Source of the DNA: an uncultured Algibacter sp.
GTDB taxonomy: Bacteria; Bacteroidota; Bacteroidia; Flavobacteriales; Flavobacteriaceae
Assembly: GCA_937958265.1 (NCBI GenBank)
Contig: CALGNX010000001.1
Coordinates: 124,001-188,000, forward strand
Direction: 5' to 3'
Length of the DNA: 64,000 nucleotides
A program made the position numbers and the translations under genes. Shown piece by piece: positions 249 through 62,386 of the stretch (position 1 is the first letter of the stretch; each line of letters opens with the position of its first letter). The notes beneath the pieces are model-generated. The model was not told the DNA's origin, ran no database searches, and worked only from the letters and a program-made list of their open reading frames with translations.

Positions 249-340
249 TGGGCGTTACCCGAAAAGGGTCGCGCTTTACGCTACAAGTCCTCGCACCTCC
301 TAAAGTCGGGCTGTGGGCTTTACGCTACAATCGCTAACGC
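249..340 (+). repeat. Dispersed 90-bp structured repeat, copy A
   Basis: Copy A of the intergenic repeat that occurs eight times in this window. It begins TGGGCGTTACCC and ends CTAACGCAAAA; the termini GCGTTA and TAACGC are complementary. Just inside the left end is a small hairpin (ACCC-GAAAA-GGGT). The unit contains two direct arms with the same core TTTACGCTACAA. It lies between two convergent genes. Confidence 0.9.
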
Positions 341-445
341 AAAAAAAAAGCAATACAGTCTATAAAACACATGCAACAAAAAAATGCTTTTAAAGCTTTA
401 AAACAAACATTTATTAATCTTAAAAAAATAAAACTACAAGAGAAA

Positions 446-1321
446 CTACCTATTTTTTAAAACCTCTTTGTAAGACCGTGTAAAAGCTTCAATTTTCGTC
501 CTTGGCACTATAACATAATCACAGGCCGATAAATCTGCATGAATTCCTATTTCTGTAATAGCCTCTAAATTAATAAGTAAATCATTTTGCTTTACAATCC
601 TAAAAAAGCTATAATTTAATCCAATAAAAAGCTCTTGAATTTCATTTTGCCTACTAATTCTAAACGTATTTTCTTTATTGTAAGCGGGAAGAATTTCTAA
701 AAGTATTATAGGCTCACTCTTAGCTATGTAGCTTTTAAAACTTATAAGAACCTCTAATTCTGCACCTTCAACATCTATTTTTAAAATTGAAATACCTTCA
801 AAATTAATTTTTGCATTTAAGTGCTCAACATCAAAAAGCGGAATATATGCTTTACGCTTAATAGCATGATTTTGCCTAAATTCCGTAATCATGGAAGCCG
901 AACTATCTACCGCCGATTTTTCGATAAAATGCAATTCGCCAACCTCTGTTTTATTAGAAACACCAACAGGAATAAGGGTTGTATTTTTAAAGTTATTCTT
1001 ACTAATTAATTTACTGGTATATCCCACACAAAACGGATTAGGCTCAAAGCCTATATATTCTATTTTGGAAGACACGCTTTTTAACTTTAATAAAGTTTGC
1101 CCTGTATTAACACCAATATCGAAAAAACGCTTTTCACCTAAAGGTAAAATAATCTTTAACACATCCAACATCCAAGGCTCCGACGTAACCAAATTTGAAT
1201 AGCCAATATTATCGCTAATAGGAATTTTAAAATTTCTATTGTTTATTGTTGTTCTTACACTGAAGTTAAAAAATTTAAAAGCATTAATTTTTTTTAAAAC
1301 TTTAACTATAAAAACATTCAT
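446..1321 (-). CDS. FkbM family methyltransferase
   Basis: Predicted 291-residue S-adenosylmethionine-dependent O-methyltransferase of the FkbM family, which methylates sugars or polyketides; the substrate here is unknown. The glycine-rich SAM motif FDIGVNTGQ is at about residues 67-75, the acidic adenosine-contacting segment FEPNP at 92-96, and the family signature KIDVEGAE at 181-188. No signal peptide or membrane segment is visible beyond a basic, moderately hydrophobic N-terminus. It stands alone on the minus strand just downstream of the large cytochrome c biogenesis gene (15 bp gap), so it may be cotranscribed with it. In Bacteroidota such genes are often tied to surface glycan decoration, but no glycan cluster is visible here. 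Confidence 0.85.
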   Translation of the reverse strand: MNVFIVKVLKKINAFKFFNFSVRTTINNRNFKIPISDNIGYSNLVTSEPWMLDVLKIILPLGEKRFFDIGVNTGQTLLKLKSVSSKIEYIGFEPNPFCVGYTSKLISKNNFKNTTLIPVGVSNKTEVGELHFIEKSAVDSSASMITEFRQNHAIKRKAYIPLFDVEHLNAKINFEGISILKIDVEGAELEVLISFKSYIAKSEPIILLEILPAYNKENTFRISRQNEIQELFIGLNYSFFRIVKQNDLLINLEAITEIGIHADLSACDYVIVPRTKIEAFTRSYKEVLKNR

Positions 1322-1336
1322 AAACTCAAATTTAAT

Positions 1337-4300
1337 TTACTTTTTATAAAACTTAGTAAAGCCACGATAAGCAAAGTAACCTAAAATAGCAACCAATGCA
1401 CACGCTATGCTAATAAATTTAATACTTACAATTTGGTCGCCACTAGCATAACTATGTAAACCGGCTAAATAGAAATTAACACCAAAATACGTCATAATTA
1501 TACTTGCAAATGCAATTATAGACATTAAATTAAAAAACCAGCGACCTCTAAGACCTGGAATTAATCGCATGTGTATAACAAAAGCATAAATCATAATACT
1601 AATAAGCGCCCAAGTCTCTTTTGGATCCCAACCCCAGTAACGGCCCCAACTTTCGTTAGCCCACATACCACCTAAAAAGTTACCAATGGTAAGCATTACC
1701 AAGCCAACAGTTAAAGCCATTTCATTAATTACCGTAATCTCTTTAATATTCAAATCCATTTTAGCTTTATTGGCTTTCGTTGTAAAAATCATGAGTAATA
1801 AAGCTACAATACCTAAAATCATACCTAATGTAAACGGCCCATAACTACCAACAATTACCGCTACATGTATCATTAACCAATAGCTATCCAAAACTGGCTG
1901 CAAATTCGCAATAGCAGGATCCATCCAATTCCAATGCGCTATCATTAAAATCATGGCTGTAACAAAAGCTGTGCTAGCAATTGTTAAATCGCTTTTTCGC
2001 CCAAAAGCCAAACCAAAAAACATGGTAGCCCAAGCCACATAAATCATAGATTCATAAGCATCACTCCAAGGCGCATGCCCAGAAATGTACCATCTTGCCA
2101 CTAAGCCAGCAGTGTGCAGCACAAATAGAGTAACTACAATCCATTTAAACACAGTAACAGCCGTATTAATAGCCTTGCTTTTATCATTAAAAATTTGAAC
2201 AATTAATACCATAAACATTAAACTGCCTGCGTATAAATACCAACTAAAAAGTTTTTTAAAAATATCATACTTATTATAAAACACTTCTGTGTTTACTTTA
2301 TCATCACTAGGCATTACAGCGTCTCCATAGCGGTGTTGTGTTTTCTTAAAAGCAGCCAACAGCTTTTCGGCCTCGCTAAAATCTTTTGTTTTTTTAGCTT
2401 CGTTAAGCGTAAACAAATATGCTCTAAATCCATTTTTTATAAAGTTTGCATATAAGGAGTCTGTTATTTTAGACTTGTCTTGTTTATAATCAAAATTTGA
2501 AATCCATGTATTATTATCATCATTAGGTATTGGAAATATTTTTAAAGAACGTCCCTCAATGGTATTATACAATAAATTTACACGTTGGTCGGTTTCTTTA
2601 AATTCTTTTTGAAATCCGTTAGGGATTTGAGCCTTGTAAGCTTCATCCAGATATGGTGCTAATTTGTACGCTCCTCTATTAGTAAAAAAATCGGCAAGCG
2701 GAATATATTTATCATCTGTACTAGCACCAATAAGCTTTCTTATAGAGTCGCCTTTTTTTGCTTTTAAATAAATAATAGGTACGTTGTACCACAGCATAGG
2801 ACTTTCTTGAATGGATAGAAACACTTGGTTTGCATCAAAACCTTCATAAGTATCTTGCTTACTTAATTTCCTTAGCATTTCAGATGCGTAGGTGTTTACA
2901 GGCATCATACGCCCACTTAAATCCTGTATTACCAAACGTCCAAATTTATCGGCATGTGCTTTGGGCGTAATATTAGCCTGAAGTATGGAATCAATTTGTG
3001 TTTTTGTAGGTTGTTTTGAGTGGTTGTGGCCATCGTTTGGGTGGTGTTCTTGGGCATTCATGTTTAAACCCGTAAACAATACTAAAACAGCAAGTAGTTT
3101 TGCTTTTTTAGCTTTTACTTTTTCTAAGTAGCGTGTTAAATCGCCAAAACGAGAGTGCTTCGAGAATAAAATAGCCATCATTCCCAAATACAGCATCATA
3201 TATCCAAAATATGTAATCATGGTACCCCAATAATCATGATTTACGGTTAAGATAGTACCCTTTTCGTCTGGATCGAAACTGGATTGAAAAAACCGATATC
3301 CGCCATGGTCTAAAATATTATTCATATAAATTTTATAATCGTAATCCTCTGTATTTTCATCTAACACTGTAACCTCGCTCGAAAAAGCCGAATAACCACG
3401 CTCTGTACCTGGATATCTCTCAGCTTCAAAATCGTTTAACTTTAAAGAAAAAGGCAATTCTAAAACCTTCGATCCGTATTTAAGCGCAATATCTAATCCT
3501 CCAATTTTAACTTGCTTATAATTACTATTTGTGCCTTTACCTCCTATTAAACCTACGCGTTGGGTTTCTCCATTAGTAGTAATATTTAAAATAACCCCAT
3601 CCTCATTATTTTTTAATAGTTCCGATTTTTTCACCACATCGAAAACACCTTTAATTACAGGTTTTGGGAATACAAGTTGCATATTTCCTATAATATATCG
3701 GGAACGTAAGTACAGCGGCTGTATACTATCCTTTACTAACTTGCCTTGGGCTCTGGTGGCCATAGTCATGTATTCGCCTTCAAATGGGGAATTTATGGTT
3801 AAAGAGTCGCCTTGATAAGTAATATTTACAGCTCCCTTAGTTGGTTTGTTTAAAGCAAAAAGTACATTATGTACACTAGCAACCTCGCCTACTTTTAAAA
3901 AATGATTGTGAGCGCCACCCGCCCCAGCTTCTACTAGTTTAAGGTATGATTCGCCATTTTCATTTGGAATAATATCCTCTTCGGCACCTACAATAAATTT
4001 TTCTAAGGTTATACTAACAGGTTGTTCGCCATATTTTGTATTAATTTCAAAATCGTTTTTTAATCGTCCGGAAAAATCAACTTCGGCACGAATTGGTAAA
4101 CGTTGGTCTACGCCATTAATTTTATAATTACCATCAATTAAAGCTGTTAAATACGTTTTTTGTGAAAGAAATGTATTTTCTGTTTCGCCTTCGCGAATAG
4201 CCATCATACCTTCAAAACTTGCGTAGCGCGTAATAAAAGCACCCAATAAAATAAAAATAAAGGCTACGTGTAAAATTAATGTTGCCCATTTTTCTTTTTT

Positions 4301-4525
4301 ATAAAGTCTGTACCTGAATATATTACCAGAAAAATTAATTATAAAAAACACCATTATCGCCTCAAACCACCAGGCGTTATAAATTAAATTTCTAGTATAT
4401 GGTGTTGGCGACATATCTTGCCCAGAATCTAAAATAGTTCCTGTTGCCATAGCAACAGCAAAAGCGATAAATAAAAAAGCAGTAAGTCTAGTTGAGAAGA
4501 AAATATTGGCTAGTTTTTTTTCCAT
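1337..4525 (-). CDS. ccsA: Fused ResB/CcsA-type cytochrome c biogenesis protein
   Basis: A 1062-residue inner-membrane protein that joins the two halves of the system II cytochrome c synthetase, which carries haem across the membrane and attaches it to CXXCH motifs. Residues 1 to about 470 are ResB/CcsB-like, with membrane helices near 10-30, 50-70 and 80-100, a large extracytoplasmic region and a helix near 440-460. The C-terminal part from about 770 is CcsA-like, with many helices and the haem-handling WWD motif (WGRYWGWDPKETW) near 955-968. Between them, near 475-505, is a hydrophobic segment that looks like an internal signal peptide followed by a histidine-rich stretch (EHHPNDGHNH). Fusion of the two parts is common in Bacteroidota and Epsilonproteobacteria. 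A minus-strand TAnnTTTG element at 4551-4558 lies 26 bp before the start. Confidence 0.93.
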   Translation of the reverse strand: MEKKLANIFFSTRLTAFLFIAFAVAMATGTILDSGQDMSPTPYTRNLIYNAWWFEAIMVFFIINFSGNIFRYRLYKKEKWATLILHVAFIFILLGAFITRYASFEGMMAIREGETENTFLSQKTYLTALIDGNYKINGVDQRLPIRAEVDFSGRLKNDFEINTKYGEQPVSITLEKFIVGAEEDIIPNENGESYLKLVEAGAGGAHNHFLKVGEVASVHNVLFALNKPTKGAVNITYQGDSLTINSPFEGEYMTMATRAQGKLVKDSIQPLYLRSRYIIGNMQLVFPKPVIKGVFDVVKKSELLKNNEDGVILNITTNGETQRVGLIGGKGTNSNYKQVKIGGLDIALKYGSKVLELPFSLKLNDFEAERYPGTERGYSAFSSEVTVLDENTEDYDYKIYMNNILDHGGYRFFQSSFDPDEKGTILTVNHDYWGTMITYFGYMMLYLGMMAILFSKHSRFGDLTRYLEKVKAKKAKLLAVLVLFTGLNMNAQEHHPNDGHNHSKQPTKTQIDSILQANITPKAHADKFGRLVIQDLSGRMMPVNTYASEMLRKLSKQDTYEGFDANQVFLSIQESPMLWYNVPIIYLKAKKGDSIRKLIGASTDDKYIPLADFFTNRGAYKLAPYLDEAYKAQIPNGFQKEFKETDQRVNLLYNTIEGRSLKIFPIPNDDNNTWISNFDYKQDKSKITDSLYANFIKNGFRAYLFTLNEAKKTKDFSEAEKLLAAFKKTQHRYGDAVMPSDDKVNTEVFYNKYDIFKKLFSWYLYAGSLMFMVLIVQIFNDKSKAINTAVTVFKWIVVTLFVLHTAGLVARWYISGHAPWSDAYESMIYVAWATMFFGLAFGRKSDLTIASTAFVTAMILMIAHWNWMDPAIANLQPVLDSYWLMIHVAVIVGSYGPFTLGMILGIVALLLMIFTTKANKAKMDLNIKEITVINEMALTVGLVMLTIGNFLGGMWANESWGRYWGWDPKETWALISIMIYAFVIHMRLIPGLRGRWFFNLMSIIAFASIIMTYFGVNFYLAGLHSYASGDQIVSIKFISIACALVAILGYFAYRGFTKFYKK

Positions 4526-4550
4526 AATAAAAAACCTTTTTTGGCTTGTG

Positions 4551-5316: not shown

Positions 5317-5408
5317 CGCGCAAGGGATAGTAGTGGATAGCCCACAGCCCGACTTTTGGAGGTGCGCGGACTTGGAACGTATAGCCCGACCCTTTTGGGA
5401 TGCGCCCA
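5317..5408 (-). repeat. Dispersed 90-bp structured repeat, copy B
   Basis: Minus-oriented copy between two divergent genes. Read on the minus strand it begins GGGCGCATCCC and ends CCCTTGCGC. The terminal pairing is GCGCAT with TTGCGC, so one of six positions mismatches. This is the only complete copy whose ends are not perfectly complementary. Confidence 0.88.
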
Positions 5409-5459
5409 AAAAATGAAAATTGTGTAGTTGTTTTAATTATTCATTAGTATTTTAGCCGC

Positions 5460-11582: not shown

Positions 11583-14369
11583 ATGAACACAATTCTTTCC
11601 GAAGTAAATCCAAAAGAAAACATCATTATAAAAGGTGCAAAACTGCATAATTTAAAAAATATAGATGTTGTTATACCCAGAAACAAACTTGTTGTAATTA
11701 CAGGATTATCGGGTTCCGGAAAGTCTAGCTTAGCTTTCGATACACTTTATGCAGAAGGGCAACGACGTTACGTAGAAAGTTTATCGAGTTACGCCCGCCA
11801 ATTTTTAGGGCGGTTAAACAAACCAAAAGTAGATTATATTAAAGGTATTGCCCCTGCCATTGCGATAGAGCAAAAGGTTAATTCCACCAATCCGCGCTCC
11901 ACAGTAGGTACAACCACAGAAATTTACGATTATTTAAAATTACTATTTGCCAGAATAGGAAAAACATACTCCCCTGTTTCTGGTATAGAAGTTAAAAAAG
12001 ACACGGTAACAGATGTTTTAAATTATTTAAAAACCTTTCCCGACGGAGAAAAACTACTGCTCCTCGCGCCTATTCTTCTTGAAGAAGGACGCACCATGGA
12101 AGACAAACTTAAAACATTACAACAACAAGGTTATGCCAGAATAAAAGTTAACGATAATGTAGTACGTATTGATGAGGCTGGCACAATTAATAAAAAAGAC
12201 ACAGTGCTTTTAGTTATAGACCGTGTTATTACTAAAAATGAAGAAGATTTTTATAACCGATTAGCAGATGCTGTACAAACTGCTTTTTTTGAAGGTAAAG
12301 GCGAATGCACTATCGAAATACTAAAAAATAAAAAACAACGCCCCTTTAGCAATAAATTTGAAATTGATGATATTACCTTTTTAGAGCCAAACGTACATTT
12401 ATTCAGCTTTAACAACCCTTACGGCGCCTGCCCTAAGTGCGAAGGTTATGGAGATATTGTTGGTATAGACGACGATTTGGTTATTCCAAACACAAGCCTA
12501 TCTATTTACGAAAACGCAATTTTCCCATGGCGAGGAGAAAGTATGAGTTGGTATAAAGATCAATTAATTAATAATTCGCACAAATTTAATTTTCCAATTC
12601 ATAAACCCTTTCACGAATTAACAGAAAACCAAAAAAAATTAATTTGGACAGGGAACTCACATTTTGAAGGATTAAATGCATTTTTTGCCGAATTGGAATC
12701 CAAAGCCTACAAAGTACAAAACCGTGTTATGCTATCGCGCTATCGCGGAAAAACAAAATGTAAAACATGTAACGGAAAACGTTTACGTAAGGAATCCAAT
12801 TACGTAAAAATTGCAGGATCTACCATTACAGATTTGGTAGAAATGCCTTTAGATAAACTTGCTAGCTTTTTTAAGCAATTGGAACTAAACACGTACGATA
12901 CAAAAATAGCAAACAGACTATTAAAAGAAATAAACAACCGGCTAGCATTTCTTGCTAATGTAGGTTTAGATTATTTAACCTTAAACAGAAAATCCAACAC
13001 ATTATCTGGTGGCGAAAGCCAACGTATAAACCTAGCAACATCCTTAGGCAGTAGCCTGGTGGGTTCCATGTATATTCTAGACGAGCCAAGTATTGGTTTA
13101 CACCCAAAAGATACAGAACGTTTAATTCTAGTTTTAAAACAACTACGCGACTTAGGAAACACCGTAATCATTGTAGAGCATGATGAGGATATAATGAAAT
13201 CTGCAGATTACATAATTGATATTGGACCCGAAGCAGGAACTTTTGGGGGCCATGTTGTTGCCGATGGTACCTATACAGATATTTTAGCCTCAAAATCCTT
13301 AACCGCAAAATACCTAAACGAAGATTTAAAAATTGAAGTACCTAAAAAAAGACGTACTTCAAAACACCAAATCAATATTATTGGTGCGCGCGAAAACAAT
13401 TTAAAAAACATAAATGTATCGTTTCCTTTAGGCATGCTAACCGTAATTACCGGCGTTTCTGGTAGCGGAAAAAGCACCTTGGTAAAAAAGATTTTATTTC
13501 CCGCCATACAAAAAAAACTAACAGACTTTGGTGATAAACCAGGGCAATTTACCAAATTAAACGGCGACTTTAGTAACATTAACCATATCGAATTTGTAGA
13601 TCAAAACCCCATTGGCCGCTCCTCAAGATCCAACCCCGTTACATACATAAAGGCTTACGATGATATTCGCAGCTTATTTTCAAAACAAAAATTAAGTAGT
13701 ATAAGGAATTACCAAGCCAAACATTTTTCTTTTAACGTAGATGGGGGCCGTTGCGACACCTGTAAAGGCGAAGGTCAAGTCACCATTGAAATGCAATTTA
13801 TGGCAGATGTACACCTAGAATGCGAAGCCTGTAAAGGCAAGCGTTTTAAAAAAGAAGTGCTCGAAGTTACTTTTGCCAATAAAAGTATAGATGATATTCT
13901 TAACCTTACTATTGATGATGCTTTACAACTGTTCGAAGCCACCGAGCAAACTAAAATTAAAAGAAAATTACAACCCCTGCAAGATGTAGGCCTAGGCTAC
14001 GTAACCCTTGGCCAAAGTTCCTCTACCCTATCTGGAGGCGAGGCACAACGTATTAAGCTAGCCTCGTTTTTAGGAAAAGGTAACAGCAAAGAAAAAGCGC
14101 TATTTATATTCGACGAACCCACAACCGGGCTGCATTTTCACGATATACAAAAACTTTTAAAATCCTTTAACGCACTTATCGCAAAAGGGCATTCCATAAT
14201 CGTTGTAGAACATAATATCGACTTAATAAAATGCGCCGATTATATTATCGACTTGGGACCAACAGGTGGAGAAAAAGGCGGGAATTTAGTAGCAACCGGA
14301 ACACCAGAGGACATAGTAAAAATTAAAACATCAGAAACAGGACGATTTTTAAAAGACAAACTAACCTAA
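11583..14369 (+). CDS. uvrA: Excinuclease ABC subunit A
   Basis: A 928-residue DNA damage recognition ATPase of nucleotide excision repair; works as a dimer that loads UvrB. It has two ABC ATPase halves. The first Walker A is GLSGSGKSS at 41-49, with a zinc module (CPKC near 283 and CKTC near 398) and ABC signature LSGGESQRI near 473. The second Walker A is GVSGSGKST near 624, the second zinc module is CDTC near 723 with CEAC, and the signature LSGGEAQRI is near 815. Length and domains are standard. Single-gene unit with its own promoter; repeat copy C begins 14 bp after the stop. Confidence 0.95.
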   Translation: MNTILSEVNPKENIIIKGAKLHNLKNIDVVIPRNKLVVITGLSGSGKSSLAFDTLYAEGQRRYVESLSSYARQFLGRLNKPKVDYIKGIAPAIAIEQKVNSTNPRSTVGTTTEIYDYLKLLFARIGKTYSPVSGIEVKKDTVTDVLNYLKTFPDGEKLLLLAPILLEEGRTMEDKLKTLQQQGYARIKVNDNVVRIDEAGTINKKDTVLLVIDRVITKNEEDFYNRLADAVQTAFFEGKGECTIEILKNKKQRPFSNKFEIDDITFLEPNVHLFSFNNPYGACPKCEGYGDIVGIDDDLVIPNTSLSIYENAIFPWRGESMSWYKDQLINNSHKFNFPIHKPFHELTENQKKLIWTGNSHFEGLNAFFAELESKAYKVQNRVMLSRYRGKTKCKTCNGKRLRKESNYVKIAGSTITDLVEMPLDKLASFFKQLELNTYDTKIANRLLKEINNRLAFLANVGLDYLTLNRKSNTLSGGESQRINLATSLGSSLVGSMYILDEPSIGLHPKDTERLILVLKQLRDLGNTVIIVEHDEDIMKSADYIIDIGPEAGTFGGHVVADGTYTDILASKSLTAKYLNEDLKIEVPKKRRTSKHQINIIGARENNLKNINVSFPLGMLTVITGVSGSGKSTLVKKILFPAIQKKLTDFGDKPGQFTKLNGDFSNINHIEFVDQNPIGRSSRSNPVTYIKAYDDIRSLFSKQKLSSIRNYQAKHFSFNVDGGRCDTCKGEGQVTIEMQFMADVHLECEACKGKRFKKEVLEVTFANKSIDDILNLTIDDALQLFEATEQTKIKRKLQPLQDVGLGYVTLGQSSSTLSGGEAQRIKLASFLGKGNSKEKALFIFDEPTTGLHFHDIQKLLKSFNALIAKGHSIIVVEHNIDLIKCADYIIDLGPTGGEKGGNLVATGTPEDIVKIKTSETGRFLKDKLT

Positions 14370-14382: not shown

Positions 14383-14533
14383 TGGGCGTTACCCAAAAAG
14401 GGTCGGGCTTTACACTATATCTTTTTAAAGTATTTTGTTATCCATCAAGCAGTTTTATTTAATTCAATTAACGCTTTAACCAACAAGGTATAACTTTAAC
14501 TTTAAAAAGGATGCCGTTTCAATCCCTAACGCA
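14383..14533 (+). repeat. Dispersed structured repeat, copy C (interrupted)
   Basis: Left part 14383-14418 (GGGCGTTACCCAAAAAGGGT onward) and right end 14515-14533 (TTTCAATCCCTAACGC) match the repeat, but the central arm is replaced by about 95 bp of unrelated AT-rich sequence. The terminal complement GCGTTA/TAACGC is still intact, so this is a decayed or interrupted copy, or a recombinant of two. Confidence 0.7.
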
Positions 14534-19504: not shown

Positions 19505-19984
19505 AGTATTAATTTATTTATTTTTTAAATTCTATTTTCGAAAATAGACAAATATTATTAATTTTTAATTGTGCTTACTTTAAAATTAAAATTATTGTGA
19601 ATTTATTTTTTTATGTTCTTTCGATTTTTTGATTTACTTATTAGCTAATTAATAAGAAATTGAAGCTTAAACTGGCTAGTTACACTCTTTCTTTACATGA
19701 AGATGTAAGGCTAATAACAAAATACAGGTGCTAATATTATGTTAGGCAAAAGAATTTGCTCTGGTTCTATTTTGGTATTGCTAAATACCATAAAACGTTA
19801 AACTACACTTGTATTTGTGCTTAAACCGAGTAAAACGTGCGCAAGGGATAGTAGCGGATAGCCCACAGCCCGACGAAGGAGGTGCGCGGACTTGTAGCGA
19901 ATAGCCCGACCCTTGGGTTGCGCCCAAAACCGTATTTTGTGTTTAAGATATTACTTGTTTATTTTAGCGTATGGTTAAGCTACT
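19505..19984. other. Intergenic region kdsB-helicase
   Basis: 480 bp without a gene. It contains repeat copy D (19838-19926); the rest is AT-rich sequence in which I see no coding or RNA signal. Confidence 0.5.
19838..19926 (-). repeat. Dispersed 90-bp structured repeat, copy D
   Basis: Minus-oriented copy. Read on the minus strand it begins GGGCGCAACCC and ends CCCTTGCGCA: termini GCGCAA and TTGCGC are perfectly complementary, the alternative pair shared with copy F. It lies between two minus-strand genes. Confidence 0.9.
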
Positions 19985-30900: not shown

Positions 30901-31290
30901 TTACACAAAACGGTTTAAATCCACCTCGTTAATAGCACCATGAGAATCGTGCGCTACCACTACACCATTTTTTATTACTAAAATTTGTGGCGATTGGTGC
31001 ATAACTTGAAATTTAAAACCAACCTCATTAGAAACATCACGATAGTTAAGCAAATCCAAATAATACAAATCCAAATCAGCCTCAGTTAAGCTATACCCAT
31101 CCACAAACTGATTCATCACCATACTACTAATACCGCATCTTGTGGAATGTTTAAATATAACCTGCGTTTTTGTTTTCGATTTTTTCGCAATAACCTCCAA
31201 CTGCTTCACATCAGTTAACGCAATCCAAGGCAAAACTTTTTCTTCTTTAGGCTCAGAGTTACCACCAAATAATTTATTTATAAATCCCAT
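30901..31290 (-). CDS. ytxJ: YtxJ-like bacillithiol-system thioredoxin-fold protein
   Basis: A 129-residue thioredoxin-fold protein resembling YtxJ/BrxC, a monothiol bacilliredoxin that removes bacillithiol from proteins. The active-site segment is FKHSTRCGISSM near 47-58, with a single Cys in a CGIS motif, and the cis-Pro region MHQSPQILVI near 97-106. Bacteroidota of this group generally make bacillithiol. It is a single gene, convergent with the lipoprotein pair; repeat copy E lies upstream. Confidence 0.85.
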   Translation of the reverse strand: MGFINKLFGGNSEPKEEKVLPWIALTDVKQLEVIAKKSKTKTQVIFKHSTRCGISSMVMNQFVDGYSLTEADLDLYYLDLLNYRDVSNEVGFKFQVMHQSPQILVIKNGVVVAHDSHGAINEVDLNRFV

Positions 31291-31736
31291 ACTTATTTTG
31301 TTTTTTGTTCTCTTTAATATATTTTTTTACACTATTATGGCGTTACCACAAGGGTCGGGCTTTACGTTGCAAGTCCTCGCTCCTCCTGCGTCGGGCTGTG
31401 GGCTTTCCACTGCAATCCCTAACGCACCTCAATTACCTTCGCATTAGGCGACTAAACACTATCCAATTTAATTATCAAACTAAAACTACTACACCCAGTT
31501 TTGCTCTAGTCTATTTTCAAACAAAGTAAACCTAGCTACCATAGTGCTATTGTAATATAAGATACTAAGTCGCAATACCAATTAAAGCATTACAAGCCGA
31601 CAAAAAGTCACTCGTAAACAGCTTGGTTAAGACATTTTGTCTGCAAAATATAATTGGTAAGATAATTGTCTTTTAGTAAAAGTAATCAAAATAAAAATAA
31701 ATTTCTTTTAAAACGGAAATACAAAACATATAAATT
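31291..31736. other. Divergent region ytxJ-clpB
   Basis: 446 bp without a gene. It holds repeat copy E (31337-31425) and a small inverted repeat AGACA-TTT-TGTCT at 31630-31642, about 95 bp before clpB, which could be an operator. Otherwise featureless. Confidence 0.5.
31337..31425 (+). repeat. Dispersed 90-bp structured repeat, copy E
   Basis: Plus-oriented copy starting ATGGCGTTACC and ending CCCTAACGC. Termini GCGTTA and TAACGC are complementary. The left inner hairpin is shortened to ACC-ACAA-GGGT. It lies between divergent genes. Confidence 0.88.
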
Positions 31737-42413: not shown

Positions 42414-42953
42414 CTATTTTTCAATTAGGTAAACTGAATCTTCATTGTCCTGCTCATACCAGTTCACTTTTACTTTTTCTTTATTTATAACATCCACTTG
42501 CCGCCCCCTATAATTAGGTTGTATTGGTAAATGCCTACTAAAACGTCTATCAATAAGAGTTAATAGTTCAATTTCATTAGGCCTTCCAAAGGATTGTATA
42601 GCTGTTAAAGCTGCCCTTATACTTCGACCAGTGTGCAAAACATCATCAATAAAAACAATATTTTTATCTTCAACTATAAAATTAATATTTGTACTATTAG
42701 CCTTTAATGGTTTATTACCTCTCCTAAAATCATCTCTGTAAAACGTAATATCTAAATGGCCTAATTCAATATTTTTAACGTTGTAATCTTCCTTTAATAT
42801 TTTAGCCAATCTATCTGCTAAGAAAACACCGCGAGGCTGTAAACCAATAAGTACCGTGTTGGAAAAATTATTATGTTTTTCAATAAGTTGACAAGCCAAT
42901 CTATGAAGAATGATGTTTACCTCTTTAGCATTAAGTAAAACTTTTTGACTCAT
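42414..42953 (-). CDS. pyrR: PyrR: uracil phosphoribosyltransferase / pyrimidine regulator
   Basis: A 179-residue PyrR-type phosphoribosyltransferase. The PRPP loop FIDDVLHTGRS is at 101-111; the family ends as PyrR does. In Bacillus PyrR binds pyr mRNA and controls attenuation; here there is no visible attenuator, because the promoter element lies only 26 bp before the start. Start: ATG at 42953. An upstream TTG at 43043 would run through repeat copy F and the promoter, so it is rejected. First gene of the pyrR-unknown-pyrB-STAS-rnz operon. Confidence 0.9.
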   Translation of the reverse strand: MSQKVLLNAKEVNIILHRLACQLIEKHNNFSNTVLIGLQPRGVFLADRLAKILKEDYNVKNIELGHLDITFYRDDFRRGNKPLKANSTNINFIVEDKNIVFIDDVLHTGRSIRAALTAIQSFGRPNEIELLTLIDRRFSRHLPIQPNYRGRQVDVINKEKVKVNWYEQDNEDSVYLIEK

Positions 42954-42978
42954 ATAATATTCAACTGAATTAGTGTAA

Positions 42979-42986
42979 CAAATATA
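42979..42986 (-). promoter_or_regulatory. Promoter (-7 element) of the pyrR operon
   Basis: Minus strand TATATTTG, an exact TAnnTTTG element 26 bp before the ATG at 42953. It fixes the pyrR start and leaves a leader of about 18 nt. Confidence 0.6.
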
Positions 42987-43029
42987 ACGCAAAAAATTAA
43001 AAATAAAACCATTGGCAATAATCTTTATT

Positions 43030-43120
43030 TGGGCGCAACCCAAAAGGGTCGGGCTTTACGCTACAAGTCCGCGCACCTCCTAAGGTCGGGCTGTGGGCTT
43101 TCTGCTGCAATCCCTTGCGC
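43030..43120 (+). repeat. Dispersed 90-bp structured repeat, copy F
   Basis: Plus-oriented copy starting TGGGCGCAACCC and ending CCCTTGCGC. Termini GCGCAA and TTGCGC are perfectly complementary, the same alternative pair as copy D. It lies just upstream of the pyrR promoter, about 45 bp from it. Confidence 0.9.
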
Positions 43121-43554
43121 AAAAATAGCTAGTCAGTCAATTTCAATTACCAAGAAGCATAATAAAAAAAACAACTTTTATTTATCCTTAAATTTAAAAT
43201 AAACCTTTAATAATTTAAATTAGATTTCATTTAAATAAAAATTCAAGACTTCAATTAAACAAAAAAGCCTTTTAGCCATTACCATTTATTAAATACTAAT
43301 ATTTAACTATTTGATTTTAAGAGAAAAGAACCAGGAATTTAAATAGCAGGAATTACAAACTAGTTTTGGTATTATATTAAAAACATAATCTGTTTAACTA
43401 TTTAGATTTTAAACACCTTCTAGGTCGTTTATACTTTCATTGTATTAAAAGATACAAATGTTTATTTAAATTAATCATTAAATAAAATGCAACGTTAATA
43501 ATTATTTCCTTTTAATTACATTACTAGCTAAATAGAATTATAATAAGCATAAAA
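43121..43554. other. Intergenic region pyrR-rpsA
   Basis: About 430 bp of AT-rich DNA between two minus-strand units, with no gene or structured element beyond repeat copy F at its left and the rpsA terminator at its right. Confidence 0.5.
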
Positions 43555-43579
43555 AAAGCCTCCAAATTGGAGGCTTTAA
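43550..43579. terminator. rpsA terminator
   Basis: Stem AAAGCCTCC with GGAGGCTTT around a 5-base loop, with a T7 run on the minus strand, 25 bp after the rpsA stop. Confidence 0.85.
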
Positions 43580-43603
43580 AAATATTAAATTAACTAAGAA
43601 AAA

Positions 43604-45451
43604 TTATTTTATTTTCCCGTCCATTTTATCTTTAAGAGCTTGTAAAGCGTCATTAGCATCTCCTAAAGTAGGTTTTGCTTCTGCAGCAGCACTAGCGGCT
43701 TTTTTAACGGCAGCTTTTACATTTGCCATTTCTTCAGCCTTAAAAATAGCAGTATGCGATGCCACTACTCTTTTAAACTCTTTGTTAAATTCAATAATCT
43801 TGAATTCTGCTTCTTCACCTTTAGCAAGCTTCTTACCATCTTCTTTTTCTAGATGACGTGAAGGAACAAAAGCAACAATATCCTCATTAAACTCAATAGT
43901 AGCACCTTTATCAACTATTTCAGCAATAGTTGCTTTATGTACCGTTTCTAAAGCGAATTCAGTTTCATATTTATCCCAAGGATTGCTTGTTGTTTGTTTG
44001 TGACCTAAACTTAATTTACGTCCTTCAACATCCAATTCTAAAACAATAACTTCTAACTTATCGCCAACTGCACAAAACTCAGATGGATGCTTAATTTTCT
44101 TAGTCCATGATAAATCAGAGATGTAAATTAATCCATCAATACCTTCTTCTAATTCAACAAAAACACCAAAGTTAGTAAAGTTACGTACTATACCTGTATG
44201 GTTTGAAGCCAATGGGTATTTAGTAGTAATATCTGTCCATGGATCTTGCGTTAATTGCTTAATACCAAGAGACATTTTACGATCTTCTCTATCTAAAGTT
44301 AAAATAACTGCATCAACTTCATCTCCAACAGAAACGAAATCTTGAGCAGAACGTAAATGTGTAGACCAAGACATTTCAGAAACGTGAATTAATCCTTCAA
44401 CACCATCTGCAACCTCTATAAATGCACCGTAATCTGCAATTACTACAACTTTACCTTTAACCTTATCACCAACAGCTACAGTATCAGCAAGTGCTTCCCA
44501 TGGGTGTTTAGATAATTGCTTAAGACCTAATTGTATTCTAGATTTATTTTCATCAAAATCAAGAATTACAACATTTAATTTTTGATCTAATTCTACAATC
44601 TCATTTGGATGATTAATTCTAGACCAAGATAAATCTGTTATATGAACTAATCCATCAACACCACCTAAATCGATAAAGACACCGTAAGACGTAATGTTTT
44701 TAACAACACCCTCTAATACTTGACCTTTTTCTAACTGACCAATTATTTCTTTCTTTTGTTCTTCAATATCAGCCTCAATTAAAGCTTTATGAGAAACTAC
44801 TACGTTCTTAAATTCATGATTGATTTTAACAACCTTAAATTCCATAGTTTTATTTACATACTGGTCGTAATCTCTAATTGGTTTAACATCAATTTGAGAA
44901 CCTGGTAAGAATGCTTCAATTCCAAAAACATCAACAATCATACCTCCTTTAGTTCTGCACTTAACAAAACCATTAACAATTTCTCCAGTTTCGTGAGCTT
45001 TATTAACACGATCCCAAGCTTGTATAACACGTGCTTTTCTGTGAGATAGTACTAATTGTCCTGTTGCGTCTTCACGAACATCAATTAATACTTCAACCTT
45101 ATCACCTACTTTTAGGTCTGGATTGTAACGAAATTCGTTTAACGATATTACACCTTCAGATTTTGCATTAATATCAATAATGGCATCTCTATCAGAAATA
45201 TGCACTACTGTACCTTCTACAACTTCGTCATCTAATGTGTCAACAAAATTTTCAGCTACTAATTTTTCAAATTCCTGTAATTGTTGGTCATCAACTTCAT
45301 CAATACCTTCTTGATAATTGTGCCAGTTAAATTCTTTTAAAAACTTTTCAGGATTTGCTCTTGCTTCAGATACTACTGGAGCCTCTACTTGTGGATTTGC
45401 CACGGCATCAGCCGATACTTCAGCTTCTACTTGTTTTGCTTTTTCAGCCAT
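43604..45451 (-). CDS. rpsA: 30S ribosomal protein S1
   Basis: A 615-residue S1 protein that helps mRNA bind the 30S subunit; important in Bacteroidota, where Shine-Dalgarno use is weak. A low-complexity Ala/Glu/Val-rich N-terminus (1-40) is followed by about six S1 OB-fold repeats between 75 and 570, seen in recurring segments such as GYGVFIDLGGVDGLVHITDLSW-type (near 262-283), DYGAFIEVADGVEGLIHVSEMSW and NFGVFVELEEGIDGL. An Ala/Lys-rich tail ends the protein. Monocistronic; its promoter element is at 45608-45615. Confidence 0.96.
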   Translation of the reverse strand: MAEKAKQVEAEVSADAVANPQVEAPVVSEARANPEKFLKEFNWHNYQEGIDEVDDQQLQEFEKLVAENFVDTLDDEVVEGTVVHISDRDAIIDINAKSEGVISLNEFRYNPDLKVGDKVEVLIDVREDATGQLVLSHRKARVIQAWDRVNKAHETGEIVNGFVKCRTKGGMIVDVFGIEAFLPGSQIDVKPIRDYDQYVNKTMEFKVVKINHEFKNVVVSHKALIEADIEEQKKEIIGQLEKGQVLEGVVKNITSYGVFIDLGGVDGLVHITDLSWSRINHPNEIVELDQKLNVVILDFDENKSRIQLGLKQLSKHPWEALADTVAVGDKVKGKVVVIADYGAFIEVADGVEGLIHVSEMSWSTHLRSAQDFVSVGDEVDAVILTLDREDRKMSLGIKQLTQDPWTDITTKYPLASNHTGIVRNFTNFGVFVELEEGIDGLIYISDLSWTKKIKHPSEFCAVGDKLEVIVLELDVEGRKLSLGHKQTTSNPWDKYETEFALETVHKATIAEIVDKGATIEFNEDIVAFVPSRHLEKEDGKKLAKGEEAEFKIIEFNKEFKRVVASHTAIFKAEEMANVKAAVKKAASAAAEAKPTLGDANDALQALKDKMDGKIK

Positions 45452-51191: not shown

Positions 51192-51197
51192 TATTTC

Positions 51198-58249: not shown

Positions 58250-59101
58250 ATGAAAAAACCATTAAAACCAAATTGGAAAACAAAACTTCATGATATTATT
58301 TATGAAGCAGATACACCCTCCGGAAAGCTTTTTGATGTTCTTTTATTCGTCACCATTATCGCTAGTATCATTTTAGTTATGCTAGAAAGTATTGAAAGCT
58401 TTGATAAAAACCACCACGATCTTTTAAACATATCAGAATGGGTAATTACCATTCTTTTTTCCATTGAATATATTGCTAGAATAATAACCGTAAAAAAACC
58501 ACTAAATTATGTATTTAGTTTTTATGGTGTAATCGATTTATTATCCACAATACCTAAATACATATCGCTTTTATTTGGGGGTATACACGCCTTAGCTGCG
58601 TTACGCGCATTGCGGTTACTTCGTATCTTCAGGATTTTAAAATTAGCCCGTTACATGGGCGCCTCCAACATGCTATCCACCGCGTTAAAGGCAAGTCGTG
58701 TTAAAATATCGGTATTCCTGTTCGCAGTACTTATAGTCTGCATAATATTTGGTACATTAATGTATTTAATAGAAGGCGCAGAAAGCGGTTTTACAAGCAT
58801 TCCAGTAAGTGTATATTGGTGCATAGTAACCCTTACAACTGTTGGCTTTGGCGATATTGCTCCCATAACCCCATTAGGTCAATTATTAGCCGCAATAATC
58901 ATGATTTTAGGTTACGGTATTATAGCCGTACCAACAGGTATTGTATCTGCAGAATATACGGCTCAAAATAATAACAATAAAAAAAATACCACAGAACCAA
59001 CAGTACATTTAAATTCCCAATCTTGCGAAAACTGCCTAGCAGAAAAACATAGAGACAAGGCAGATTACTGTTATAATTGTGGAGAACGCTTATACATTTA
59101 G
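58250..59101 (+). CDS. Voltage-gated K+ channel with C-terminal zinc ribbon
   Basis: A 283-residue six-helix ion transporter. Membrane segments run from about 25 to 235. The S4 voltage sensor ALRALRLLRIFRILKLARY near 120-138 has regularly spaced Arg, and the pore carries the K+ selectivity filter TTVGFGD near 196-202. Residues from about 240 are an Asn/Thr-rich linker and then a cysteine module CENC...CYNCGERLYI (259-283), two CxxC pairs 13 residues apart, like a zinc ribbon. That appendage may sense metal or redox, or anchor the tail. Monocistronic; repeat copy G starts 5 bp after the stop. Confidence 0.85.
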   Translation: MKKPLKPNWKTKLHDIIYEADTPSGKLFDVLLFVTIIASIILVMLESIESFDKNHHDLLNISEWVITILFSIEYIARIITVKKPLNYVFSFYGVIDLLSTIPKYISLLFGGIHALAALRALRLLRIFRILKLARYMGASNMLSTALKASRVKISVFLFAVLIVCIIFGTLMYLIEGAESGFTSIPVSVYWCIVTLTTVGFGDIAPITPLGQLLAAIIMILGYGIIAVPTGIVSAEYTAQNNNNKKNTTEPTVHLNSQSCENCLAEKHRDKADYCYNCGERLYI

Positions 59102-59105
59102 CCTT

Positions 59106-59197
59106 TGGGCGTTACCCGAAAAGGGTCGCGCTTTCCGTTTCAAGTCCGCGCACCTCCTAAAGTCGGGCTGTGGGCTATCCACTACAATCCCTAACGC
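59106..59197 (+). repeat. Dispersed 90-bp structured repeat, copy G
   Basis: Plus-oriented copy beginning 5 bp after the K+ channel stop. Starts TGGGCGTTACCC, ends CCCTAACGC; termini complementary. Followed by a poly-A run of 15 or more. Confidence 0.9.
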
Positions 59198-59305
59198 AAA
59201 AAAAAAAAAAAAACAGATTTTAACTATTCTAAAAAAACTATTACATAAAACTTCAAATTCTAATAAGCAAACTAACTTTATTTTTTTTAAACCATTTATT
59301 CAAAT

Positions 59306-59313
59306 TAACTTTG
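59306..59313 (+). promoter_or_regulatory. Promoter (-7 element) of miaA
   Basis: TAACTTTG, an exact TAnnTTTG element 16 bp before the GTG start of miaA; leader of about 10 nt. Confidence 0.55.
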
Positions 59314-59329
59314 CTACATAAAAAAACAC

Positions 59330-60262
59330 GTGATAAACCCACAAACCAAATATCTAATTTCCATTGTAGGGCCAACTGCAATAGGCAAAACAGCACTAAG
59401 TATTAAATTAGCGCAGTACTTTAAAACGGATATTATTTCGGCAGATTCACGTCAGTTTTTTAAAGAAATGGAAATAGGGACAGCTGCACCAACCAAAACA
59501 GAATTAGCAGCAGCAAACCATCATTTTATTCACCATAAATCCATAATGGACAATTACAGCGTTGGTACGTTTGAAAAAGACGCATTAAAAACCTTAGACC
59601 AACTATTTAAAAATAAAAATGTAGTTATAATGGTTGGCGGCTCAGGATTATACAGCGATGCTGTTAAAAACGGCTTGGACTATTTTCCAAAAGTAGATGC
59701 AACCATAAGAGAAAATCTAAATACAAAACTAAATAAAAACGGCTTAGCAATACTGCAAGAACAATTACTAAAGCTAGATCCAATATCCTATAACAGTATA
59801 GCTATAAACAACCCACACCGTGTTATACGAGCTTTAGAAATTTGTATTGGTACCAAACAACCATACTCATCGTTTTTAAACAAACCAAAAAACAAACGTA
59901 ATTTTAAAACAATAACAATTGGATTAACCGCAGAAAGAGCATTAATATACCAACGTATAAACCAACGTGTAGATCTTATGCTAAAAAACGGATTGTTGGA
60001 TGAAGTTACCAGCCTACTAGAACACAGAAACCTAAACGCCTTAAATACTGTGGGCTATAAAGAATTATTTAACTTTATAGACCATACCTGGGATTTAGAA
60101 TTTGCAATTTCTGAAATTAAAAAAAATACCAGACGCTTTGCAAAACGCCAACTCACTTGGTTTAAAAGAAACGAAAACACAATCTGGTTTGATTTTAGCA
60201 CACCAACAGAAAACATAATAAGTACCCTACAACCTTACTTAAGTAATATAAAAAATGATTAA
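59330..60262 (+). CDS. miaA: tRNA dimethylallyltransferase
   Basis: A 310-residue enzyme that puts a dimethylallyl group on A37 of tRNAs reading UNN codons. P-loop GPTAIGKTA at 14-22; SADSRQFFKEMEIGTA near 41-56 and the DMAPP-site GGSGLY near 103-108 are intact. The start is GTG at 59330. The stop overlaps the start of the GNAT gene by 8 bases. A promoter element lies just upstream and repeat copy G farther up. Confidence 0.95.
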   Translation: MINPQTKYLISIVGPTAIGKTALSIKLAQYFKTDIISADSRQFFKEMEIGTAAPTKTELAAANHHFIHHKSIMDNYSVGTFEKDALKTLDQLFKNKNVVIMVGGSGLYSDAVKNGLDYFPKVDATIRENLNTKLNKNGLAILQEQLLKLDPISYNSIAINNPHRVIRALEICIGTKQPYSSFLNKPKNKRNFKTITIGLTAERALIYQRINQRVDLMLKNGLLDEVTSLLEHRNLNALNTVGYKELFNFIDHTWDLEFAISEIKKNTRRFAKRQLTWFKRNENTIWFDFSTPTENIISTLQPYLSNIKND

Positions 60263-60935
60263 CGAAACCGTATTAGACAATCCTGTTTGGTTCGCACTAA
60301 AAGAGCAACACATCAATTATTGTGCAGATTATGGGCCTGTAAAATTTTACAACCCAGAATATACCCCATTTGGAGCTTTTACAAATAATGAAGATACCAC
60401 TGAAGCCATTAAAAGCTTTTCAAAACTAGCAACCAGCTTTATTATTTTTGGCAACCAACCCAAGTTACCAGAAAACTTTCAACCAGCAATTAGGTATTGT
60501 GGTTACCAAATGATATTGCATGAAAAAATTAAGCATCCCATAACCGAAGAAATTATCGAGTTAAACCAAGAACATTACAACGACTTAATGGCCTTAGTAA
60601 AACTAGCATACCCTTTATTTTTTAAAGAAAAAACCAATAAATTAGGTCGTTATTATGGCATATATAAAAATAAAACATTAGTAGCGGTAGCAGGCGAACG
60701 CATACAAACTAAACATTATACCGAAATTAGTAGTGTAATTACACACCCCGAGCATACCGGTAAAGGTTACGCTAAACAAATTATAACACATGCTACAAAT
60801 AATATTTTTAATGTCAATAAAACACCATTTTTACACGTTGATGAAACAAATACAAACCCCATTAATTTATATAAAAAATTAGGCTTTAGCCTACGACGAA
60901 AATTAAATTTCTGGAAAATAAACGTTCCTAATTAA
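60255..60935 (+). CDS. GNAT family N-acetyltransferase
   Basis: A 226-residue protein with a C-terminal FR47/GNAT domain. Acetyl-CoA-binding motif region SVITHPEHTGKGYAKQII near 161-178 and the C-terminal NPINLYKKLGFSLRRK near 202-217 are typical. The N-terminal 110 residues look like a degenerate second GNAT fold. The acceptor substrate is unknown. It overlaps miaA by 8 bases, so the two are translationally coupled; a terminator follows. Confidence 0.85.
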   Translation: MINETVLDNPVWFALKEQHINYCADYGPVKFYNPEYTPFGAFTNNEDTTEAIKSFSKLATSFIIFGNQPKLPENFQPAIRYCGYQMILHEKIKHPITEEIIELNQEHYNDLMALVKLAYPLFFKEKTNKLGRYYGIYKNKTLVAVAGERIQTKHYTEISSVITHPEHTGKGYAKQIITHATNNIFNVNKTPFLHVDETNTNPINLYKKLGFSLRRKLNFWKINVPN

Positions 60936-60955
60936 AAAAACGCTAAAACAAAAGA

Positions 60956-61000
60956 AATTGAAAATACAGCAACAAGCTGTATTTTCAATTACCTTTTTTT
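60956..61000 (+). terminator. Terminator after the miaA-GNAT operon
   Basis: 15-bp stem AATTGAAAATACAGC with its complement around AACAA, followed by T8. Confidence 0.85.
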
Positions 61001-61020
61001 TATCACTTCAATAAATTTAT

Positions 61021-61575
61021 ATGAATACCTTTTTAAAACGCATTTTAATACTACTATCCATATTAGCACTAGGCCTGTTTTTATATTCTACTTTTGTGGA
61101 AAACCTCTTCAGCTCACGCTTAAGCCCAAAAGACACTGTAGAATTTAAATTGAACGATTTAACACTTGAGGTTTTTTATAACAGACCACAACGAAAAAAC
61201 CGTGAAATATTTGGAGCCTTAGTACCTTTTAACAAAGTATGGCGTACCGGAGCAAACGAAGCTACTACATTTGAAACCAATAAACCATTAACAATAAAAG
61301 GCCTCTCGCTTCCTGCTGGAAAATACACACTATGGACGGTGCCAAAACATGCTACATGGAAAGTTATTTTTAACTCAAAACAATACGCATGGGGTGTAAA
61401 TGCCGAAATGGAACCTATGTGGGACCCAAATTACGATATTGTAAGTATTGAAGTTCCTGTTCAAAAATTAGAGAACTATGTCGAGCAATTTACTATTGCT
61501 TTTGATAATTCTACAGACAACCTGTTTCTAACCATGGCTTGGGACGATGTTAAAATTGCTGTGCCATTAAAATAA
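61021..61575 (+). CDS. DUF2911 domain protein, membrane-anchored
   Basis: A 184-residue protein with one N-terminal hydrophobic helix (about 8-27), probably an uncleaved anchor or signal, then a DUF2911 domain. The family's recurring pattern of Tyr, Arg and Trp residues is visible: YNRPQRKNREIFGALVP near 53-69, WRTGANEATTFETN near 74-87, LPAGKYTLWTVP near 96-107, WDPNYDIVSIEV near 136-147 and LTMAWDDVKIAVPL near the end. Function unknown. Monocistronic, 20 bp after the terminator of the previous operon. Confidence 0.85.
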   Translation: MNTFLKRILILLSILALGLFLYSTFVENLFSSRLSPKDTVEFKLNDLTLEVFYNRPQRKNREIFGALVPFNKVWRTGANEATTFETNKPLTIKGLSLPAGKYTLWTVPKHATWKVIFNSKQYAWGVNAEMEPMWDPNYDIVSIEVPVQKLENYVEQFTIAFDNSTDNLFLTMAWDDVKIAVPLK

Positions 61576-61709
61576 CCTATCTAAAAGCTAGATAAGAACC
61601 ATACAAACCACGTTTAAATTACAATATCTCGAATTATAAAAACCTATTATACGTGGTTCATTTTAAAAACATATTAAATTAATATAGTCCTAAAAATGGA
61701 TTAAATAAA

Positions 61710-62285
61710 TTATAAAACAGTAGCATTAAAACGCCTTAATAAAAACCTAGCAAGTTTATAAAACATAAAGCCAGATACTGCGCCAAATGCTAGGCCACAA
61801 ACAATATCAATAGGGTAATGTACACCAACATAAATTCTGCTATAAGCCACAATAATACTCCAAAATAAAAGTAGGAAAATAAGATTTTTATAAAACGGTT
61901 TTAAAAGTAAACCCGTAAAAATAGCTGCGGCCATAGAGTTTGAAGAGTGCCCTGAAAAAAAACCGTACTTACCACAGCGCACTGCAATAAACCGAATACT
62001 ATCAGCAATTTCCTCTACTCTGCACGGTCTAGGCCTCATAAAGGTACGTTTAAAAACATTTGTTATTTGGTCTGTAAACGTAATCATCAATACAATTACT
62101 ACTATAAAAATTAATAAAGCTTTTAAGCCATAGTTCTTGTACAAGAAAAATAATAACAAAACATATAGCGGGATAAAAGAAAACTTACTTGTTATAACTA
62201 ACCATAAGGTATCCCAAGGCGCAGACCCTAAATTATTTAAAAATATAAAAAGTTCTGTATCGTAATTTAAAAGCTGTTCAATCAT
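61710..62285 (-). CDS. PAP2-family phosphatase
   Basis: A 191-residue membrane phosphatase of the PAP2 superfamily (lipid or undecaprenyl pyrophosphate phosphatase-like). The three-part motif is present: KRTFMRPRP near 70-78, the catalytic FSGHSSNS near 108-115, and SRIYVGVHYPID near 148-159. Five to six membrane helices. Start: ATG at 62285; a longer frame beginning at 62309 starts inside repeat copy H and only adds repeat-derived residues, so it is rejected. Follows the 75-aa gene on the same strand. Confidence 0.9.
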   Translation of the reverse strand: MIEQLLNYDTELFIFLNNLGSAPWDTLWLVITSKFSFIPLYVLLLFFLYKNYGLKALLIFIVVIVLMITFTDQITNVFKRTFMRPRPCRVEEIADSIRFIAVRCGKYGFFSGHSSNSMAAAIFTGLLLKPFYKNLIFLLLFWSIIVAYSRIYVGVHYPIDIVCGLAFGAVSGFMFYKLARFLLRRFNATVL

Positions 62286-62296
62286 GGAGGTCTGTT

Positions 62297-62386
62297 TGGG
62301 CGTTACCACAAGGGTCGGGCTTTACATTGCAAGTCCTCGCACCTCCAAAAGTCGGGCTGTGGGCTTTACATTGCAATCCCTAACGC
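62297..62386 (+). repeat. Dispersed 90-bp structured repeat, copy H
   Basis: Plus-oriented copy in the 104-bp gap between two minus-strand genes: 12 bp before the PAP2 start and 3 bp from the stop of the 75-aa gene. Starts TGGGCGTTACC, ends CCCTAACGC; termini complementary. Both internal arms read TTTACATTGCAA, a variant shared by the two arms within this copy. Confidence 0.9.

Follow-up and report, generated by a model that had tools for sequence, protein, structure and literature searches.

A Flavo-1-related dispersed repeat of Algibacter: fold, strand preference and possible mobility

In this work we have examined a family of intergenic repeats in a 64,000-nucleotide stretch of DNA (the window) from an uncultured Algibacter sp. 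(GenBank assembly GCA_937958265.1, contig CALGNX010000001.1, positions 124,001 to 188,000 of the forward strand). Eight copies of the element, A to H, lie scattered over the window in both orientations (Table 1). They are present where an original prediction had put them, and its observation of a repeat is confirmed in a stronger form than it was stated. The covariance model R1, for which 42 copies from the genome were used, seven of these eight among them, recovers exactly eight copies in the window at E<=10 (E 7e-11 to 2e-25), and the 10-mer GGGCGTTACC occurs there four times against 0.06 expected from shuffles, so that its recurrence is not a matter of chance. We find the element to be a new, expanded variant with kinship to the Rfam family Flavo-1 (RF01705), a relation missing from the earlier note, and we refer to the element strand matched by Flavo-1 as the Flavo-1 strand. 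It resembles a small mobile element in its behaviour more than it does an RNA gene. The best-supported mechanism, in our judgement at even odds, is that of a non-autonomous repeat which is mobile and is recognised in the form of a folded single strand.

The paired ends were found as predicted (Table 1), and the one mismatch, in copy B, is common to five of the six congeners which have a model match at this site. The interior agrees with the prediction only in part. The inner hairpin, given as ACCC-loop-GGGT, exists as CCC-loop-GGG in copies A, B, C, F and G, whereas in D the CCC and GGG stand only two bases apart and E and H carry ACCACAAGGGT at this place. The sequence TTTACGCTACAA, which was said to occur in both arms, does so in copy A but not in the others; on the other strand the arms read TT-GNA-NN-GNA-AA and pair with each other. 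Copy C, taken originally for an interrupted copy, is better read as the same ends around a different centre (type II), and the second stem of copy G has one broken pair (G.G). By the gene caller used, the copies do always lie between genes, whereas the list of open reading frames (ORFs) holds longer or overlapping frames touching E, F, G and H (31142-31447, 42414-43043, 59079-59321 and 61710-62309), which the gene caller dropped or shortened.

Table 1. The eight copies in the window; the strand is that of the folded Flavo-1 strand.
Copy	Centre	Position	Strand	Ends	Further parts and surroundings
A	type I	249..340	-	GCGTTA/TAACGC	outer stem 252-257/335-340; second stem 271-273/332-334; small hairpin 258-260/266-268; arms 275-286 and 319-330
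B	type I	5317..5408	+	GCGCA/TGCGC plus one mismatch	
C	type II, long hairpin, loop of about 60 nt	14383..14533	-	GCGTTA/TAACGC	13 nt past stop of gene 11583-14369
D	type I	19838..19926	+	GCGCAA/TTGCGC	
E	type I	31337..31425	-	GCGTTA/TAACGC	
F	type I	43030..43120	-	GCGCAA/TTGCGC	query behind the plasmid relatives
G	type I	59106..59197	-	GCGTTA/TAACGC	4 nt past stop of gene 58250-59101
H	type I	62297..62386	-	GCGTTA/TAACGC	

Collected over the whole genome, the copies form a family of dispersed repeats of about 90 bases each: R1 finds 114 places at E<=0.001 (150 candidates scored), and BLAST with copy A as the query finds 40. The range of the family was surveyed with R1 over 40 genomes, with 107 candidates scored in most of them, so that the counts for the genus are lower bounds. 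All ten same-genus genomes, our own included, have between at least 40 and at least 105 matches. In other genera of the family, 12 of 15 genomes have 1-23 matches (there are none in G013, G017 and G018), and in other families 3 of 15 genomes have 1-5. Among the matches listed for the type-I core, 63 of the 80 named contigs carry the name Algibacter and the others those of Hyunsoonleella, Mariniflexile, Jejuia and uncultured Flavobacteriaceae. The classes of centre were assigned by simple text patterns, and some type-I copies landed in the classes 'other' or 'IV'.

The evidence for the fold is comparative. RNAalifold, run without hints, returns the outer stem, the second stem, the arm pairs and the side hairpin. 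When the structure drawn by hand is laid over 42 type-I copies, 98.5% of the 822 cells are paired, and sliding of the partners lowers this figure to 20-53%. Both sides have changed at 7 of the 20 pairs, giving 36 double-changed cells against 6.1 (standard deviation 2.1) in shuffled data, and none of 500 shuffles reached this number. An alignment of 81 copies from three genomes, which was fitted to the model and whose copies share ancestry, is 97.2% paired; here 15 of the 20 pairs have changed on both sides (10.8 in shuffles, one of 500 as high) and 202 cells are double-changed against 40.5 (standard deviation 7.0). Checked genome-wide, the terminal variation is paired and not random, and compensatory change, predicted for the ends, is borne out there and beyond them, both across the genome and when single orthologous sites are compared between species. 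In the arms of the Flavo-1 strand each triplet shows little or no variation at its G and A and no constraint on its middle base, and the two bases at the centre covary. GNA triplets which face each other and form sheared G.A pairs occur in DNA as well as in RNA. We also observed other palindromes, of the CCGATAGYTATCGG type and the CCTGAGCGCAGACGAAGG type, nested in the loops of copies at L070, L074, L122 and L127.

Which of the two strands is read? A wobble pair seen on one strand turns into an A.C mismatch when the opposite strand is read, and both were counted. On the Flavo-1 strand of the 81 copies, with 1557 cells, there are 46 G.U and 6 A.C; in the 42 copies, with 822 cells, there are 3 and 0. 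The scarcity of G.U in the smaller set might have served as a pointer to DNA, but it is undone by the larger one. A MAFFT alignment of 76 copies from three genomes (42, 31 and 3; these remain from 121 after removal of 10 known orthologues and of 35 copies which did not pass a filter on length and motif) gives G.U 19 against A.C 3 by cells, and 11 against 3 by pair positions, which is not significant (p 0.057). The excess of G.U over A.C makes it probable that selection acts on a folded single strand, and on these counts the folded Flavo-1 strand is most likely what selection reads, as RNA or as single-stranded DNA. The same excess disfavours a double-stranded palindrome, or hairpin-templated correction, as the sole cause of the covariation, since we reason that such correction alone would give no strand preference.

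The relation to Flavo-1 deserves a closer description. At the curated Rfam cut-offs the window yields one match each to two RNAs, RNase P and Flavo-1, the latter at copy C. This is the sole window copy above the Flavo-1 gathering cut-off of 42 bits, with 51.2 bits in the search of the window and 36.5 bits, under the cut-off, in the genome-wide search. When matches at E<=1 are considered, seven of the eight copies match over model positions 1-76 and always on the same element strand; the six besides C score 24.9-34.8 bits, and copy G has no Flavo-1 match at this threshold. The Flavo-1 consensus of a stem with 3x3 internal loops is found on that strand in seven of the eight copies. Genome-wide there are 63 Flavo-1 matches, 9 of them above the gathering score, several type II copies being among these nine. 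The 90-base type described here shares this stem and differs from Flavo-1 by an extra outer stem, a side hairpin, another centre and its behaviour as a dispersed repeat. Flavo-1 was listed in 2010 as a candidate structured RNA, likely to be RNA and not cis-regulatory, by Weinberg et al. (PMC2864571). A transcriptome study of 2021 gained no clue about its function, and in Flavobacterium psychrophilum it describes hits lying 'indistinctly' sense or antisense to transcribed regions, with many outside them (PMC9723704). In the open-licence literature we found no paper presenting the element as a dispersed repeat.

The history of single copies was followed at five of the sites in eight of the nine other congeners, whose DNA identity is about 75-80%. 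The B site has a model match in 6 of the 8, at the same place and in the same orientation, is decayed in G001 and empty in G009; in four species its centre is a hairpin whose sides vary together. A match is present at the C site in 7 of the 8, with at least four kinds of centre, at the D site in 3 and at the G site in 2, with decayed remnants of G in others. The ends of D are GCGCAA/TTGCGC in G000, GCGCAA/GTGCGC in G001 and GCGCCA/TGGCGC in both G002 and G004. Comparing filled with empty sites, as the original prediction had suggested, we found the H site empty in all eight congeners tested, and copy H is probably a new insertion, judging from these alignments. The survey as a whole indicates that many copies are old, that some are decaying and that at least one is probably new. 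Between G002 and G004, a closer pair of congeners, ten orthologous copies have 33/892 differences, compared with 72/1084 in the 3' flank and 243/1074 in the partly unalignable 5' flank. In eight of the orthologous G002/G004 pairs, 11 of 157 paired cells have changed: 2 are double changes which still pair, 5 are single changes which still pair and 4 are broken. In an eleventh pair (G004 L100:4870 and G002 L122:6636) both the site and the ends agree, while the centre is of type I in one species and of the Flavo-1 type in the other.

Could the family be a fossil? Such an exchange of centres at a fixed site, together with decayed copies at L052, L078 and L082, would suit a relic of the repetitive extragenic palindrome (REP) or miniature inverted-repeat transposable element (MITE) kind, without present function or movement, in which paired changes arose through hairpin-templated correction and gene conversion. 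We consider this very improbable. Templated correction should treat G.T and A.C alike and the counts differ, at the significance given above for pair positions; copy H is absent from every congener tested, and the GNA/GNA mismatches persist uncorrected.

The placement of the element was studied with a simple gene caller for 121 copies from three genomes. One lies within a doubtful ORF call and six lie at locus ends, and the remaining 114 stand between tandem (71), divergent (22) and convergent (21) genes; in the larger loci, the intergenic stretches that measure 120 bp or longer number 193, 81 and 49, respectively. Gene 3' ends lie at a median distance of 66 nt and 5' ends at one of 138 nt. 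At less than 60 nt from a 3' end, 35 copies oppose the gene and 17 agree with it, orthologous copies included. With respect to tandem genes the Flavo-1 strand agrees in 34 cases and opposes in 37, by which a gene-linked 3' element of fixed orientation is ruled out. The motif TANNTTTG, which we take to be promoter-like, was found within 100 nt upstream of the element 11 times in sense and 20 times in antisense, showing no excess in one simple scan of the 121 copies, and it is mostly directed away from the element (11 toward and 20 away upstream, 7 toward and 26 away downstream). GGGCG is preceded by TTT in 70 of the 98 copies in which that end was located. We also noticed that the right flank of many copies in G002 and G004 continues past TAACGC with some 16 weakly conserved bases, approximately GCRRGTATATYTGCTAA by eye, an extension which is weaker in G000.

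These data bear on the main rival explanation, that the element is a functional RNA working in place. The Flavo-1 strand would then be a protein-binding hairpin, a 3'-UTR (untranslated region) or antisense element or a processing site, and the copies would be retained because each of them works. The preference for G.U over A.C, the compensatory change at single orthologous sites and the slower change of the element than of its flanks in the ten G002/G004 pairs all favour it, as does the listing of Flavo-1 as likely RNA in the entry by Weinberg et al. (PMC2864571). We nevertheless regard it as unlikely, given the orientation with respect to tandem genes, the lack of an excess of promoter motifs and the inconsistent position of Flavo-1 in the published transcript data, as far as these are described (PMC9723704). 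Moreover, the TTT mentioned above becomes AAA on the Flavo-1 strand, which is then mostly followed by A's and not by a T-run. A role as RNA or as a boundary element, raised in the original prediction, may still apply.

Relatives of the element are also found on plasmids. With copy F as the query we obtained 60 plasmid records, at 60-80% identity, which come from gut bacteria of the order Bacteroidales (Bacteroides, Parabacteroides and Phocaeicola), and the three plasmid regions first tested score 68.8-69.9 bits with R1 and 25-31 bits, under the cut-off, with Rfam Flavo-1. The form present on p5482, used as the query, matches 81 plasmid records, 80 of them over at least 80% of its length; the weakest is a Vibrio record, matched over 36%. 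Two copies lie in different surroundings on p5482, larger plasmids have one copy beside other genes, and between such unlike plasmid contexts the match extends little past the element. At the second p5482 site, homology to other plasmids stops 1 nt past the GCGTTA end, and the outer sequence is small-plasmid sequence beginning 5-6 nt further on; this break point is one arrangement common to p5482-like records and does not represent many events. A short similar stretch, about TACCTT..GGGTGGGTGGG, was seen to precede the GCGTTA end on several Bacteroidales plasmids, at L297, L300, L301, L306 and the first p5482 site. A search of phages gave no match, and two viral contigs each have a 77-bit model match.

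Is the element, then, a site at which unrelated DNA segments are joined? The flanks were compared further in G002 and G004. A G002 counterpart had been fetched for 9 of the 52 fetched G004 copies, and the element was present in both species each time, so that no exact empty site appeared among these; at one of the nine (G004 C2:369126) the flank past the GCGTTA end is unaligned. Of nine further G002 copies, five align across the element, two are at rearrangements and two are without a fetched counterpart. In one rearrangement, a synteny break (L118:4421-4509 against L097:12040-12240), the sequence on the GCGTTA side is without a counterpart among the pieces fetched from the other genome and bears an ORF which we read as DNA-methylase-like. 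In the other (L115:15302-15391 against L308:8611-11500) a 2.9-kb block of four ORFs replaces the element. It might be proposed from the p5482 break, from these two rearrangement ends at or near the element and from the flank identities, which are below 75% on the GCGTTA side in 5 of 10 pairs and on the other side in none of 10, that a recombinase links otherwise unrelated DNA, in most cases at the GCGTTA end, on a folded single strand resembling an integron attC site in logic and not in sequence. We think this quite unlikely, as the cases are few and were met during the search for empty sites, the asymmetry of the flanks is confounded by the tendency of the other end to adjoin coding ends, and the element aligns in both species at 14 of the 16 comparable sites.

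The comparison with attC itself leads to the same judgement. Both have one folded strand, conserved ends, a variable centre and a frequent position near a gene stop. The attC consensus is RYYYAAC ... GTTRRRY, with AAC and GTT facing inward. The element differs in its long conserved sequence and its scattering in both orientations, and no cassette arrays were seen; compared with this consensus its core motifs are inside-out, with GTT outermost on the Flavo-1 strand and innermost in attC. MITEs resemble it in their non-autonomous size, complementary ends and dispersal in both orientations, and differ in that the complementary ends of the element are only 6 bp long, no target duplication was seen at H or in the flank profiles and both ends and interior covary.

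Which enzyme could act on such a repeat? The family Y1_Tnp (of the IS200/RAYT type, RAYT being the REP-associated tyrosine transposase) has one match in the genome, which is not on the contig of the window. We observed that this domain (L001, C27:53590-53889) stands in frame within an Eco57I/MmeI/TaqI_C restriction-modification ORF, between two methylase parts, and that GGGCTTRAGCCC palindromes follow it in the coding frame; long open frames suggest the same arrangement in G001-G004. Among the 40 genomes there were 51 Y1 matches. The stretches around them which were searched with R1 come to 32 distinct ones (0 of 14 and 1 of 20 with a copy, two places being in both sets), and 12 of the 13 same-genus Y1 matches lay within them. 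A single stretch holds a copy, about 530 bp from the Y1 ORF in G001, so that adjacency to a RAYT as the mover is not the rule.

The original prediction considered a REP/BIME-like element among the possible identities; a REP element with its own RAYT is not supported. REPs are defined as palindromes of 20-40 bp tagged with GTAG or CGTC (PMC3733652). The element is like REP sequences, bacterial interspersed mosaic elements (BIMEs) and REPINs with their RAYT (TnpA_REP) in being short, intergenic, near gene 3' ends, present in many copies and folded as one strand; it differs in its length of about 90 bp, in lacking a conserved tag, since the bases around G-N-A vary, in the rarity of copies near Y1 stretches (1 of 32) and in its abundance where Y1 has no match, as in G005 and G007. 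A related reading would assign the folded strand to a Y1 transposase of subclass 2.6, members of which are flanked in Bacteroidetes by 'atypical secondary structures' according to a published description (PMC6006769). That description and the copy near the Y1 ORF in G001 are in its favour and make it a lead. It is the least probable of all the readings weighed here, for the same rarity near Y1 stretches and the same two genomes without a Y1 match.

We come back to mobility as the best-supported explanation. From a dispersed and folded element we infer a further step, that an enzyme acting in trans moves it as single-stranded DNA and that it has spread by transposition, with single-stranded DNA rather than RNA as the substrate. 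The working form would be the folded Flavo-1 strand, with the outer stem GCGTTA/TAACGC, the small side hairpin, the second stem and two arms which pair via symmetric GNA/GNA internal loops and are capped by an exchangeable centre. An enzyme supplied in trans would recognise this strand, most simply as single-stranded DNA exposed at replication or conjugation, and insert the unit, roughly TTTGGGCG...TAACGC, into intergenic DNA in either orientation, often near gene 3' ends. Many copies would then persist for a long time, trade centres when they recombine with one another and in some cases lie where rearrangements end. The mobility in trans suggested originally is supported indirectly, by the absence of copy H from the congeners and by the same unit in unrelated plasmid contexts, and the centre was exchanged at one fixed site.

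Several observations weigh against this view. No transposase was found, Y1_Tnp being the only family searched genome-wide, and Y1_Tnp has no match in G007, with 99 element matches, or in G005, with 40 (92% complete). An exact empty site was not found, the flanks of the relatives at H being too diverged, and target duplication was not visible at H or in the flank profiles, with no close empty site to compare. The copies are stable at the comparable G002/G004 sites. Compensatory change at fixed sites, seen at D, in the centre of B and in the two double changes of the eight orthologous pairs, points to selection acting in place, of which a dead insertion would have no need. Finally, further pair types in the 42 copies number 9 against 7.3 in shuffles (73 of 500 as high), which is no excess, and the folding energy of single copies is no better than that of shuffles (three copies, both strands, DNA and RNA parameters), so that the evidence for the fold is covariation and not stability.

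A still wider proposal is that Flavo-1 is the trace of a Bacteroidota-wide system of single-strand DNA recombination or transposition and not an RNA gene. Its sites would be read by their fold, their centres would be exchangeable modules, conjugative plasmids would carry them, about 100 copies would lie in a chromosome and the enzyme would be unlike attC integrases and RAYTs. We hold this to be decidedly improbable. What the present analysis adds is that the relatives of Flavo-1 now have an anatomy (an outer stem, GNA/GNA arms and a swappable centre), a strand, a copy number, an expansion at the level of the genus and plasmid carriers, and that the question 'RNA or mobile DNA?' has become directly testable. 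If the element is a mobile site read by its fold, it would add to the cases in which DNA moves in the form of folded single strands; if instead it acts where it lies, about 100 conserved copies per genome would make up an unexplained layer of the genome.

Apart from the repeat, we noted in the window, at 43549-43620, a terminator-like hairpin at gene 43604-45451, which gives a weak Phe_leader match (33.3 bits, cut-off 55).

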